Shown here: piece after piece, positions 60,419 through 64,000 of the stretch | How positions within the stretch are numbered: the first letter of the stretch is position 1 | Layout: each line of letters begins with the position of its first letter | From: Sphingorhabdus sp. EL138 | Lineage (GTDB): Bacteria > Pseudomonadota > Alphaproteobacteria > Sphingomonadales > Sphingomonadaceae | Direction of reading: 5' to 3' | Length of the DNA stretch: 64,000 nt | Assembly (NCBI RefSeq): GCF_900258045.1 | Contig: NZ_OGVD01000003.1 | Coordinates: 372,001-436,000, forward strand | Program-made: the position numbers and the translations under genes | The notes under the pieces: model-generated | Databases searched by the model: none | Seen by the model: only the letters and a program-made list of their open reading frames with translations | Told to the model about the DNA's origin: nothing

Positions 60419-61090
60419 CTAGCTAACCGGTGCTTGCCGACGATAGCTGAGGGCTTCTGCAACATGGATCCGCCCGATCTGTTTGGCGTCCGCCAGATCA
60501 GCTATCGTCCTGGACACGCGAAGGACCCGGGTATAACTGCGGGCGGATAGCCGCATGGCTTCTGCAGCTTGTGCCAGCAACTGCCGCCCGGCCTCATCCG
60601 GTGTCGCATGTTTTTCCAGCGCATCGCCGTTAATTTCAGCGTTGGTCCGAGCATCGAGATCAGTATAGCGCTCACTCTGCACGCGCCGCGCCTTGGTCAC
60701 TCTGGCCGCAACCGCAGCCGAGCCTTCGGCAGGGGCCGGCATCGTAAGATCGGCCGCTGACAAGGCTTCCACCTCAATGTGCAAATCGATTCGGTCGAGC
60801 AGGGGTCCGGAAACTTTGGCCTGATAATCAGCTGCACATTTCGGCGCGCGTGAACAGGCAAGGCTCGCATCGCCAAGATGCCCGCAGCGGCACGGATTCA
60901 TCGCCGCCACCATCTGCACACGTGCTGGAAAAGTAACATGGGCGTTCGCCCGCGCTACGCTCACCTCTCCGGTTTCCAGCGGTTGGCGCAGCGAATCCAG
61001 CACGGTGCGTTGGAATTCCGGCAGTTCATCAAGAAACAACACGCCTAAATGAGCGAGGCTGACCTCGCCAGGACGCACTTTCAGGCCGCC
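60419..61090 (-). pseudogene. comM: comM/yifB, 3' part, cut by a transposon
   Basis: These are the last 224 codons of a ComM (YifB, Mg-chelatase-like AAA+) gene. ComM is a hexameric helicase that extends branch migration in natural transformation. Visible are GGLKVRPGEVSLAHLGVLFLDELPEF (Walker B LFLDE), LRQPLETGEVSVARANAHVTFPARVQMVAAMNPCRCGH, the Cys motif CSRAPKC, SGPLLDRIDLHIEV and a C-terminal MgChI-C domain. The N-terminal half with the Walker A motif is absent: at 61090 the reading frame runs into transposon-end DNA. A start inside the element (61120) would add only 10 foreign residues and could not restore function. Confidence 0.93.
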
Positions 61091-61098
61091 TGTTAAAC

Positions 61099-61183
61099 GC
61101 CAAACTCTATGATACTCCAAGGCTCTTTTTTGGGCTCAATAGTCATGCATAGAGATACTGTGCTCCAAACTCTGCGAGACTGT
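61099..61183 (+). repeat. Putative TnsB binding sites in the transposon end
   Basis: GCCAAACTCTATGATACT at 61099-61116 and TCCAAACTCTGCGAGACT at 61164-61181 match at 14 of 18 bases in direct orientation, 65 bases apart, between the terminus and tnsA. Tn7-family ends carry such repeated transposase sites. Only two copies are clear. Confidence 0.55.
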
Positions 61184-61203
61184 TTTCGCAAAGGGCGAAC
61201 TCG

Positions 61204-61911
61204 GTGAGATTCGTTGATAAAATATCCATCTTGCCAAGAAATCGTGCAAAACTGCCGCCTGCAACAAGTGCGGTGCGCGGAGAATTGGCCGTTCCGTTCT
61301 CAGATAAACCAATAATTTTCCAATCTGAACTGGAAAGAAACTTCATTTCCATATGTATTTTTGCGTCGGAAGTTTCAGGGCTGGTTTGGGAACCCTTCCA
61401 CGTCCGCTACTTCGACCTCAAGCTGAATAGATTCTGCATATACACACCGGATTATCTGGTTGACTATGTTGATGAACGCGGCAATCACAAGAGGCTATTG
61501 GTCGAGGTGAAATCTGAGAATGATTTTCGCAAAACCATTGTCGAATACCGCGCAAGATATTTTGCGGCACAGCGCTGGGCGAACGAGCAACCGAATTGCA
61601 AATTCCGTGTTGCGACAGATAGTTGGATGACCCAGAAAGGTCTCTCGAACATCCAGCTGATAAACGCCCATCGCAACCTCGAAGTTCCTCAAAAAACGGT
61701 TCAGTACGTTCGTAAACAAGTAATTAAACATCCCGGCACATCCTTGGGCTCCTTAACCCAGAGGCTCCAGCAAGGTCGTGCCGAAGGTGACAACGCGTTC
61801 GGAACTATCATGGCCTTAATGGCCGCTCGAACATTGTGGTTCGACATAGGCTCGCCTCTAACTACGGAGACGAAGATCTATGAAAGCCAAGGCAAAAGAA
61901 TATTTCGCTAA
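61204..61911 (+). CDS. tnsA: TnsA-like transposon endonuclease
   Basis: This 235-residue protein with a GTG start is of the TnsA heteromeric transposase endonuclease family. TnsA cuts the 5' ends of the element so that it moves by cut-and-paste. The PD-(D/E)XK core is intact: E42 in QSELERNF, D83 in YTPDYLVDYV, and E101-x-K103 in LVEVKSEND. A C-terminal helical domain (about 160-235) would contact TnsC. Its 3' end overlaps tnsB by 32 bases. Confidence 0.88.
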   Translation: MRFVDKISILPRNRAKLPPATSAVRGELAVPFSDKPIIFQSELERNFISICIFASEVSGLVWEPFHVRYFDLKLNRFCIYTPDYLVDYVDERGNHKRLLVEVKSENDFRKTIVEYRARYFAAQRWANEQPNCKFRVATDSWMTQKGLSNIQLINAHRNLEVPQKTVQYVRKQVIKHPGTSLGSLTQRLQQGRAEGDNAFGTIMALMAARTLWFDIGSPLTTETKIYESQGKRIFR

Positions 61912-63601
61912 CTCAAGCTCAGCAATTGCGCTTGATGACACTCGTCAAGAAATTGAAAAACAAAATTACCGCAAAGCCCGGGAGCTGGGAAAGCAGCTCA
62001 GACCTTATCTGACAAGGCGTACGACACCCCAGCAGGTCGATGTCATATGCAAAAGTGCAGAAATTTCCCGGCCAACATTTTTTCGAAAATTGAGAAAATT
62101 CCGGAATGATCCACGGATTTCCAGTCTGGTTGCGAACAAATCCAGCGGCGGCGCAAAGACATCTCGGTTAGATCCAGACGTCTTGAAGATCATTGAAAAA
62201 GTGATGAAAAGCTATTTTCGCAAGCACAAGAGCAATGCCGTACTAAGGGATTTGTGGGAGCATATTGTCAGAGCCTGCCTTAAAGAAGGACTGAAGGCCC
62301 CTTCTGAATCTACGGTAAGGAGGCATTACCACGCGCTATCGGCAAGAGATAAAGCGCGCATGAAATATGGTGCTAAATACGCATATGAACAATTTGACCG
62401 TAAGAAGGGGACTAATCCTGAGCGTACATTTCCGTTGGAGCGCGTGCAAATTGACCATACGCTTTGTGATATTGAACTTTTGGACTCAGTAACCAGAGAG
62501 GAAGTGGGACGCCCATGGATTACTATTGTCATGGACGAATATTCGAGGGCTGTACTTTCTTTCGTTCTCACCTTTGAAGCACCTTCCGCGACGACGGTTG
62601 CCTATGCCCTCACCCGGGCGGTGTTGCCCAAAGAAGACTGGCTCGCATCGCTCAGCGTGAATGGTAGCTGGCCCTTTCGCGGCAAACCACATCGCATATT
62701 CACTGACAACGGCAGTGATTTCACCTCAAAAGCAATCAACTTTGGTTGTGATGAGTGGCTCATACCGAGGCCAGAAAAACGGCCCAAAGGCTCTCCGCAA
62801 TATGGTGGGCAGATTGAGCGCATCATCGGTACGGTCATGAAGAAAACTAAACTTTTGCCTGGCGCTACCGCTAGAAATTTCGAGCTCGCCGTCAAAAAAG
62901 GCCGCCATAATGGCAAAAAAACCGCAACAATGACGTTGCGGGAATATGAGGCTGTATTAGCGACATGGTTTGTTCAAGAATATCATGCGCGCCCTCATGC
63001 GGGTCTAGGTATCTCACCTATGGAGCAATGGCGCCGCGGCATTGAAGGATATGGCAAGCAACCAGGCATTGGGGAACCAGAGCTGGTTTCAGACCCGAAG
63101 AAGTTCTTTATCGACTTTTTGCCCGGCGAGCGTCGTACTTTGCAACGCTATGGCTTTGTTTGGAATTACATCGAATATTGCGATGACTCACTGCAGCCGC
63201 ATCTCGATATGTCGCTCGGCCAGCGCTATCTTGTAAAACGCAATCCGCATGACATATCCAAAATATATTGGCTCAACCCCAAAGATAACAAATATTATCA
63301 GATACGGGCCACGACCCCCGGCCTTTCAGGTTACACTTTGTGGGAATGGAACAAGGCGCGAGAACTTGTAAAGAACTCTGGCACAAAACGCACGGTCGAA
63401 GCGATTGCAGAGCGCATGCGTCAAGAAGAAGTGCTCCTTGGTATCGCAAAAGCAGAAACGAAAAGGGTCCGCAAGGCCAGTGCCCGCAAGCTCGATTCCA
63501 AACATGTCACTAAGGAAATGCTGGGCGAAGACGAGACTGTAAGCGAACCAATTGAAACCAAGCCTTTTGTGCGTCAGATTTTCAAGGTGGAAAAACGATG
63601 A
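61880..63601 (+). CDS. tnsB: TnsB-like DDE transposase
   Basis: This 573-residue TnsB/TniA-type transposase has N-terminal HTH domains (about residues 45-160; STVRRHYHAL), an rve integrase core with D192 in VQIDHT, D276 in FTDNGSDFTSKA and E313 in YGGQIERIIGT (spacing DD36E), and a C-terminal mu-type beta-barrel (ERRTLQRYGFVWNYIEY, VKRNPHDISKIYWLNP). The basic tail (about 480-573) would bind TnsC. It is intact and probably active. Its stop overlaps the tnsC start (ATGA). Confidence 0.94.
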   Translation: MKAKAKEYFANSSSAIALDDTRQEIEKQNYRKARELGKQLRPYLTRRTTPQQVDVICKSAEISRPTFFRKLRKFRNDPRISSLVANKSSGGAKTSRLDPDVLKIIEKVMKSYFRKHKSNAVLRDLWEHIVRACLKEGLKAPSESTVRRHYHALSARDKARMKYGAKYAYEQFDRKKGTNPERTFPLERVQIDHTLCDIELLDSVTREEVGRPWITIVMDEYSRAVLSFVLTFEAPSATTVAYALTRAVLPKEDWLASLSVNGSWPFRGKPHRIFTDNGSDFTSKAINFGCDEWLIPRPEKRPKGSPQYGGQIERIIGTVMKKTKLLPGATARNFELAVKKGRHNGKKTATMTLREYEAVLATWFVQEYHARPHAGLGISPMEQWRRGIEGYGKQPGIGEPELVSDPKKFFIDFLPGERRTLQRYGFVWNYIEYCDDSLQPHLDMSLGQRYLVKRNPHDISKIYWLNPKDNKYYQIRATTPGLSGYTLWEWNKARELVKNSGTKRTVEAIAERMRQEEVLLGIAKAETKRVRKASARKLDSKHVTKEMLGEDETVSEPIETKPFVRQIFKVEKR

Positions 63602-64000
63602 GCGGGGTCGCGGCAGCGGCGCCGGGAAACGGCCGCGTCAATGAAGAGCGCATTGCTCATATCAAAGATCGCCCATTTATCCACTATCCACGTTTTGCTA
63701 AATATCTCGGTAAGATGGAAAGAATGTTGGTGGCAAATGATGAAAATCGGAAGAACATTCTGATTGCTGGAGTATCGGGAAATGGGAAATCATCGATCGG
63801 CAAATATTTTCTGGAGGCCAACCTTCCAATAAGCCAACCCGATAGCGATGCCGACTTTGCACCAATAGTCTACGTCTCGCTGCCTGAAGACGCGAATGTG
63901 GGTTCATTTGCTGGCCGTATTCTCGAAAATTTGTGGGAAAGCAGGAAAGCAAATGTCAATCATTCCGAACGCATGCATATTGCCCGCTCGATGCTCAAGG
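63598..64000 (+). CDS. tnsC: TnsC/TniB-like AAA+ ATPase, N-terminal part
   Basis: The first 134 residues lie in the window. After an Ala/Gly-rich start comes RIAHIKDRPFIHYPRFAKYLGKMERML, the TniB/TnsC lead-in, then a Walker A LIAGVSGNGKSSIG at about residues 57-70. TnsC forms ATP-dependent filaments that link the target-selecting protein to TnsAB. The gene runs off the window end; Walker B is not yet reached. Confidence 0.9.
   Translation, partial: MSGVAAAAPGNGRVNEERIAHIKDRPFIHYPRFAKYLGKMERMLVANDENRKNILIAGVSGNGKSSIGKYFLEANLPISQPDSDADFAPIVYVSLPEDANVGSFAGRILENLWESRKANVNHSERMHIARSMLK

Follow-up and report, generated by a model that had tools for sequence, protein, structure and literature searches.

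The gene comM, which encodes a transformation helicase, is already known as a homing site of Tn7-like islands, and TnsF has been shown to bring one of them, Tn6022, there. According to the excerpts available of Faure et al. 2023 (PMC10293859), the TnsF of Tn6022 is a protein of 498 amino acids (aa) with N-terminal zinc fingers, encoded after a 369-aa TniQ, and transposition is impaired when it is removed. A 2024 review, again as excerpted (PMC11406308), calls TnsE homologues almost universal in comM-targeting elements. Here I describe a Tn7-like element of 54,508 bp that interrupts comM in Sphingorhabdus sp. EL138. It begins within a window of 64,000 nucleotides (nt), the whole stretch of DNA that was analysed, which is C2:372001-436000 of a 3.66-Mb genome in four contigs. 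I propose that it is a complete cut-and-paste transposon from a lineage, mostly alphaproteobacterial, whose members home to comM without TnsF, and that its short TniQ is the most likely recognizer. I consider this reading probable.

The original prediction, made from the window's sequence, had named comM as the habitual site of the Tn6022/AbaR group, in agreement with the excerpts of PMC10293859. The present element resembles that group, as described there, in its tnsA-tnsB-tnsC-tniQ order, target gene, orientation and 5-bp duplication, and the junction used by its lineage is within 1 bp of that used by TnsF-bearing relatives, a comparison outside which the Acinetobacter copies of comM stand. 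It differs in having no TnsF after tniQ (element and genome searched), in a TniQ of 332 aa rather than 369, and in a TnsB and TniQ that fall in another clade. A 7,014-bp element carrying sul1 belongs to the same TnsB/TniQ lineage, is likewise without TnsF and occupies the comM site in two hosts, but its cargo is tiny, its TnsB is about 39% identical, and it lacks the 634-aa gene found here beside tniQ. The closest relative found lies in comM of Sphingomonas abaci DSM 15867 (L064; TnsB 41%, TniQ 42% identical), with a related 597-aa gene beside tniQ that is only 27% identical to the 634-aa gene. A type I-B1 CRISPR-associated transposon with a comM guide (PMC11406308, excerpts) shares the target gene, whereas the present element shows no Cas domain or guide-like match. 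The Tsy transposon (PMC10293859, excerpts) also targets comM, but by an operon of tyrosine recombinase, helix-turn-helix and TnsF-like proteins and without inverted ends; the present element has Tn7-type ends and operon, no TnsF by a Tn6022-type profile, and a lone tyrosine recombinase deep in its cargo.

What is new is that comM is reached without TnsF; TniQ itself is perhaps responsible, a mechanism that I infer. No report of TnsF-free comM targeting was met in the literature searched, which was mostly without subscription papers and without supplements. A second lineage at the same base with no detectable TnsF allows a test of whether the TniQ core reads DNA alone, and the same comparison bears on whether TnsF came first or joined an existing habit. 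If true, the proposal breaks the rule that short TniQs require a partner selector.

A complete element within comM

The original prediction held that a Tn7-like element with TnsABC and a TGT end sits in comM of a sphingomonad-like genome. Pfam matches, both ends, a target duplication and an empty site bear this out, and the order-mates of the genome, G183 among them, confirm its sphingomonad type. The predicted interval, 60419-64000, takes in 672 bp of host comM. The parts that lie in the window, and the gene that follows them, are these:

60419..61090, minus strand: 3' portion of the interrupted host comM, starting at about residue 280 and including Walker B and the C-terminal domain (Pfam, empty-site match, junction)
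61086-61090: one copy of the target duplication CCGCC, within the comM 3' part
61091..64000: portion of the transposon inside the window (TGT...ACA ends, CCGCC on both sides)
61204..61911, plus strand: tnsA, predicted endonuclease subunit, 235 aa (PF08722 at 3.3e-8, above its cut-off; TnsA alignment)
61880..63601, plus strand: tnsB, predicted DDE transposase, 573 aa (Mu-transpos_C at 3.8e-6, above cut-off; rve below cut-off)
63598..64000, plus strand: start of tnsC (TniB at 1.9e-44; whole gene C2:435598-436503, 301 aa)
C2:436503-437501, outside the window: tniQ, 332 aa (TniQ at 4.6e-25)

The element runs from window position 61091 (C2:433091), where TGT opens the left end, to C2:487598, where ACA closes the right end, 51,598 bases (51.6 kb) beyond the window edge. 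The left end, with its first base at 61091, reads TGTTAAACGCC. The 5-bp sequence CCGCC stands immediately outside both ends. Extension past 64000 thus recovered the second end, tniQ, the cargo and the 5' part of comM, on whose presence at the far side the prediction depended; it lies within C2:487599-488533. The 3' part matches Mg_chelatase (1.5e-49) and Mg_chelatase_C (1.2e-29), and the open reading frame (ORF) at 60419-61120 is a chimera that passes from the transposon end into comM. Removal in silico of the element and one CCGCC leaves a comM frame of 541 residues. The rejoined flanks are 96.4% identical over 1,686 bp to the uninterrupted comM of sister genome G416 (L058) and 95.2% over 1,683 bp to that of sister genome G414 (L059), so that two sister genomes carry the empty site. 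In an automatic search of 15 elements, a 5-mer common to both flanks was found in 8.

Numbered on ComM of the sister genome, the cut falls at GGG codons that start at residue 279, and Walker B (LFLDE) starts at residue 297. ComM is thus cut before Walker B, and its function should be crippled. Every such insertion splits the transformation-helicase gene. The boundaries, duplication, empty site, gene content and lineage of the element, and the undetectability of TnsF, are all read from sequence. I infer that the element is mobile at the present day.

The core genes run tnsA-tnsB-tnsC-tniQ in one direction, their ends abutting or overlapping as in one operon. TnsB matches the solved Tn6677 TnsB at 7.5e-39, and its catalytic triad D192/D276/E313 is invariant in an alignment of five TnsBs. 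TnsA has E44 by alignment and D83 and K103 by motif position, and TnsC has a Walker A motif at 58, all of which, as in Tn7, I take to be the active residues. TniQ has paired cysteines, and an AlphaFold2 model of its relative from L064 (11 sequences) reached a mean predicted local distance difference test (pLDDT) score of 81.7. The whole Tn7-like core, TnsA, TnsB, TnsC and a short TniQ, is present. Of candidate TnsB-binding repeats, those inside the left end reach 15/20 matches; the right end has none at 14/20 or better.

The search for a selector

In Pseudomonas and Sulfurimonas elements, a tniQ of 363-394 aa is followed by an overlapping or abutting gene of 477-501 aa, rich in paired cysteines; in L106 its counterpart is a 411-aa piece at the end of a contig. 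Such genes were labelled TnsF by gene order, length and cysteine-rich N-terminus, not from the published AjTnsF sequence. A profile of seven of them matched 13 of 80 named loci at E<1e-10, with a single 17-bit match in L118. In that scan it found nothing in the studied element or in the other alphaproteobacterial comM elements. Nor was TnsF found in any of the 12 whole genomes, this one included, that host comM elements without it, while both of two controls were positive.

Other kinds of guidance were also sought. The 52 ORFs between tnsA and the right end that reach 80 aa contain no Cas domain. The longest guide-like match to comM within the element is 11 nt, where random host windows give 11-14. 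A repeat search of the element gave one 23-nt repeat in two copies, and an Rfam scan of L004-L006 and L070 gave no match. Something other than TnsF probably guides the element to comM.

The same site in relatives

A TnsB search of the host's order found matches in 64 of 396 genomes, this one included. The search gave loci from 29 other genomes, and in at least 7 of these a comM 3' part adjoins tnsB (14 of the 29 genomes were viewed for only 1.5 kb either side of the match): at the site used here in G148, G183, G205 and G004, and at residue 392 in G326, G374 and G327. The N-terminal part of comM is present in 368 of the 396, a figure for presence and not for the frequency of interruption.

A wider set comprised 80 named loci, each with a TnsB relative. 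In 25 of them a comM 3' part lies upstream of tnsB at no more than 3.5 kb, 45 have no comM piece with at least 1.5 kb available to judge, and 9 have too little sequence. Twenty-two of the 25 comM pieces start near residue 280 (L073, L106 and L130 being counted by a wider boundary); L071 has a piece starting at residue 389. The comM pieces listed among the named loci are all antiparallel to the tns operon. Among the hosts of these 25 are Sphingomonas, Erythrobacter, a Hyphomonadaceae metagenome-assembled genome (MAG), Pseudomonas, Campylobacterales, Entotheonella and Cyclobacteriaceae. TnsF accompanies 9 of the 25 and is absent from 16; among the latter, L133 and L134 come without downstream sequence, and L073 and L079 with little, although both of those genomes were searched whole.

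A junction was taken to be the host base that directly adjoins the tnsA end, in the numbering of the sister comM. Ten rows without TnsF join at nt 838: the studied element, L038, L064, L067, L072, L073, L076, L077, L078 and L079 (nine genomes, as L038 and L079 are from one). TnsF-less L070 joins at nt 839, as do six rows with TnsF (L090, L103, L104, L108, L109, L119). Looser alignments put L084, L091, L092, L133 and L134 at 835-844. The scan found no TGT in range for L039, L040, L082, L106 and L135 and returned no row for L037 and L074; by eye, L039, L040 and L082 open with TGA, L037 reads ...CCGCC|TGTGGA and L074 ...CCACC|TGTGGA. The comM 5' part was located in 17 of 20 genomes searched whole, with none at 1e-30 in G374, G435 (L108) and G432 (L135). 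Element sizes, computed by hand from its distance, vary widely: about 18.6 kb in G004, 37 kb in the L064 host, 38 kb in G205 and 39 kb in G148.

A search of 385 genomes of the class with a TniQ alignment gave five matches at 1e-25 besides the studied one, a small sample for a fresh test of TniQ. The sole other short TniQ, of 335 aa in G699, belongs to an insertion in comM, and the 16 kb read there show no TnsF. For the four matches with TniQ frames of 429-562 aa, comM was not seen in the 9-16 kb read.

One and the same 7,014-bp element occurs in a Hyphomonadaceae MAG (L067), in Luteimonas marina (L069), in Sphingomonas sp. Y57 (L070) and on plasmid pISP1 (L146), which is typed as conjugative. 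From tnsB rightwards, L067 and L069 are identical to L070 at 6,027 of 6,027 positions and L146 at 6,025 of 6,025; agreement extends through the leftmost 1 kb to the TGT, a stretch outside this count. In L068 (a Nevskiales MAG), 3,701 positions of the left part are identical before the sequence diverges near the contig end. The element holds tnsABC, tniQ, sul1 and short frames, and in comM its flanks are CCGCC and CCCGC (L067, L070). The tns genes, some 4.4 kb in all, may suffice for comM. With little beyond tnsABC-tniQ, this natural element is small enough for laboratory testing.

Three side observations concern comM as a target. A second region of insertion, with 3' pieces starting at about residues 382-392 beside TGT, is used by other Tn7-like lineages (L025/L049 of G326, L026 of G374, L030 of G327, L095, L099). 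In G400 (L144), another species of the same genus, the comM match ends at residue 348 at a gene for a 517-aa serine recombinase, so comM attracts unrelated elements too. Finally, in a Sphingomonas subgroup of comM elements (L071-L074, L076-L079, L037, L038) a profile search showed no tnsA close to tnsB, an absence that would point to replicative transposition.

Two lineages at one site

A first TnsB tree held 53 of the 80 named loci, the studied element and 8 others. A more careful one held 48 rows, omitting 9 long-branch rows, the identical L069, L070 and L146, and L098 and L116. The trees were built without true Tn7 TnsB and with two TniA rows (L148, L149), presumably of Tn402/Tn21 type. L147, from an Acinetobacter plasmid whose locus is broken by ISAba1 after tnsB, was counted with TnsF by assumption.

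The 12 TnsF-positive rows and L147 form one 13-row clade of TnsF/Tn6022 type (support 100/99). The studied element belongs to a separate clade of 12 rows (100/98), alphaproteobacterial except for one Arenicella MAG; nine are at the same comM site, L071 is elsewhere in comM, and L065 and L075 show no comM. The original prediction had left it to a TnsB tree to place the element: its TnsB falls outside the TnsF/Tn6022-type clade, yet within a clade of its own that mostly uses the same site. TniQ gives the same two groups (13 rows with the studied element, 96/92; 12 rows with TnsF, 96/88), and TnsC gives the same picture more weakly.

The prediction also supposed that the choice of target is old in one Tn7-like branch. 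The approximately unbiased (AU) test, with constraint sets all chosen after the first tree had been seen, rejects this in its strict form. Forcing 21 comM rows together is rejected at p 7e-47 (a set that parts near-identical rows, L135 from L112 and L074 from L071), as is a clade of 29 comM rows including their kin at p 1e-54. What survives is a wide branch of 35 rows, comprising all rows at the comM site used here (site A) and their relatives inserted elsewhere (p 0.26); without its three Rhodospirillaceae rows the remaining 32 are rejected (p 0.015). On the TnsB tree the TnsF label changes once, given the assumption for L147, and comM changes eight times. A strictly comM-only clade is rejected, then, and a wider branch with switches of target appears compatible with the trees.

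The idea that TniQ moves between TnsB backbones, raised by G004 (L011), was dropped: the AU test does not reject a place for L011 TnsB among the alphaproteobacterial rows (p 0.35), and its TnsC joins that clade (58/43).

What reads comM?

Given TnsA, insertion into host comM would be by cut and paste. On the pattern of the Tn7 family, TnsB would bind the ends and join them to the target, TnsA would cut the other strands, TnsC would bridge transposase and target, and TniQ would help choose the site. The site lies just upstream of the Walker B codons, and the short TniQ, unaided or together with a host factor, would recognize it; with no TnsF, Cas domain or guide-like match found, TniQ, with or without a host protein, is taken as the selector, a choice that I rate about as likely as not to be right. 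The fuller form of the proposal is that a core-only TniQ of about 320-350 aa, alone or with a housekeeping protein of the host, reads comM for TnsABC across sphingomonads and some other Alphaproteobacteria, and that TnsF-free homing is older than, or independent of, TnsF. To that form I would give an even chance.

Several observations weigh against homing by TniQ. A short TniQ is, in the excerpts of Faure et al. (PMC10293859), the mark of elements with a separate selector. The TnsF label was assigned by likeness, and a highly divergent selector could escape the profile; the 634-aa gene could itself be the selector. The TniQ model fits solved TnsD/TniQ structures loosely (Foldseek E 6e-5, template modelling score at most 0.48 by query length). 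The end repeats are no better than shuffles (best left-right match 14/20, against 13-15 shuffled). Targeting is also not strict, for the 7-kb element occurs outside comM, with flanks CCTGG (L069) and GCTCG (L146), and probably so in L068.

The 634-aa gene (C2:437488-439392) adjoins tniQ on the opposite strand. A second selector encoded by the element and unrelated to TnsF, whether this gene or the 466-aa tyrosine recombinase of the cargo, is an improbable source of the targeting. The gene is well placed for it, and its profile relatives stand beside tniQ in L064, L082, L039 and L040. Those four were all in the profile, however, with L040 hardly alike by pairwise BLAST, and the profile matches just those four and the gene itself among the loci searched and no other TnsF-less comM element searched, the complete 7-kb one included. 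The gene has no Pfam match even at E 10. Its profile has a weak match (hhalign 84%) to the TnsE-position gene of Pseudomonas and Sulfurimonas elements; to label it TnsE-like would be guesswork. A profile made for the TnsE position matched TnsF-type loci only. An AlphaFold2 model of its relative in L064 (two sequences) came out at pLDDT 31.7, unusable. It is unlikely, too, that the element is an ordinary Tn6022 relative that has lost TnsF and is now immobile or uses TnsF in trans. Gene order, site and orientation are indeed those of TnsF-bearing elements, but the trees place TnsB and TniQ apart from the TnsF clade with support, and TnsC less strongly; TnsF is missing from all 12 host genomes; and a TnsF-less 7-kb element is found in four places, twice in comM, identical from tnsB to its right end.

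Homing to comM might instead be ancestral to a wide Tn7-like branch and carried by TniQ, with TnsF recruited later in the Tn6022 branch. Base and orientation are the same with or without TnsF, and nearly so in the Campylobacterales and Cyclobacteriaceae relatives; the single change of the TnsF label and the 35-row branch fit this history. The eight changes of comM and the rejected constraints do not, and convergence on comM is documented, by the excerpts of PMC11406308, for I-B1 elements guided by CRISPR RNA. I put this history somewhat short of an even chance.

Cargo

That the cargo may be the real prize of the locus, as the original prediction suggested, seems worth a look. It includes a biosynthetic cluster at C2:440413-458608 (L004:9413 to L005:8608), of 44% G+C against 53.5% in the host part of the window. 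Its genes encode an acyl carrier protein, two ketosynthase-like proteins, a FabZ-like dehydratase, short-chain reductases, an enoyl-CoA hydratase-like protein, a phosphopantetheinyl transferase, an adenylation-carrier protein, an SbnA-like pyridoxal phosphate enzyme, M24 and NUDIX proteins, an HpaB-like hydroxylase, a LOG-like protein (PF03641), a weakly KASIII-like protein, a thioesterase and a MATE pump. The cluster is rare: at 1e-15 the KASIII-like gene is found in one of 385 class genomes, this one itself, and relatives at 25-28% identity occur in seven plasmids. Within it lies a divergent second pyrD (NCBIfam quinone-dependent dihydroorotate dehydrogenase, 447 bits against a 366-bit cut-off), which shares 51% identity with its counterpart on contig 3. 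A spare target enzyme within a biosynthetic cluster can signal self-resistance, and pyrD is possibly such a gene, which would point to an inhibitor of pyrimidine synthesis.

The remaining cargo includes a MucR regulator, an APH-type kinase, HlyD and AcrB-type efflux genes, an EamA transporter, two Xre/RES pairs, a TacA-like antitoxin, a DUF2235/Tle1-like protein, an RNase H-helicase protein, ParB/RepB proteins and a serine recombinase. A ubiquitin-like triad (Multi_ubiq, ThiF-DUF6791, DUF6527; C2:474622-477057) is also found in the comM element of G004 (L040:16186-18441). The 466-aa tyrosine recombinase is encoded at C2:466258-467658. Relatives of it (32-55% identity) stand divergently beside tnsB in L111, L113, L114, L120 and L140, Sphingobium- and Sphingomonas-type elements without TnsA matches, where the recombinase is perhaps a resolvase.

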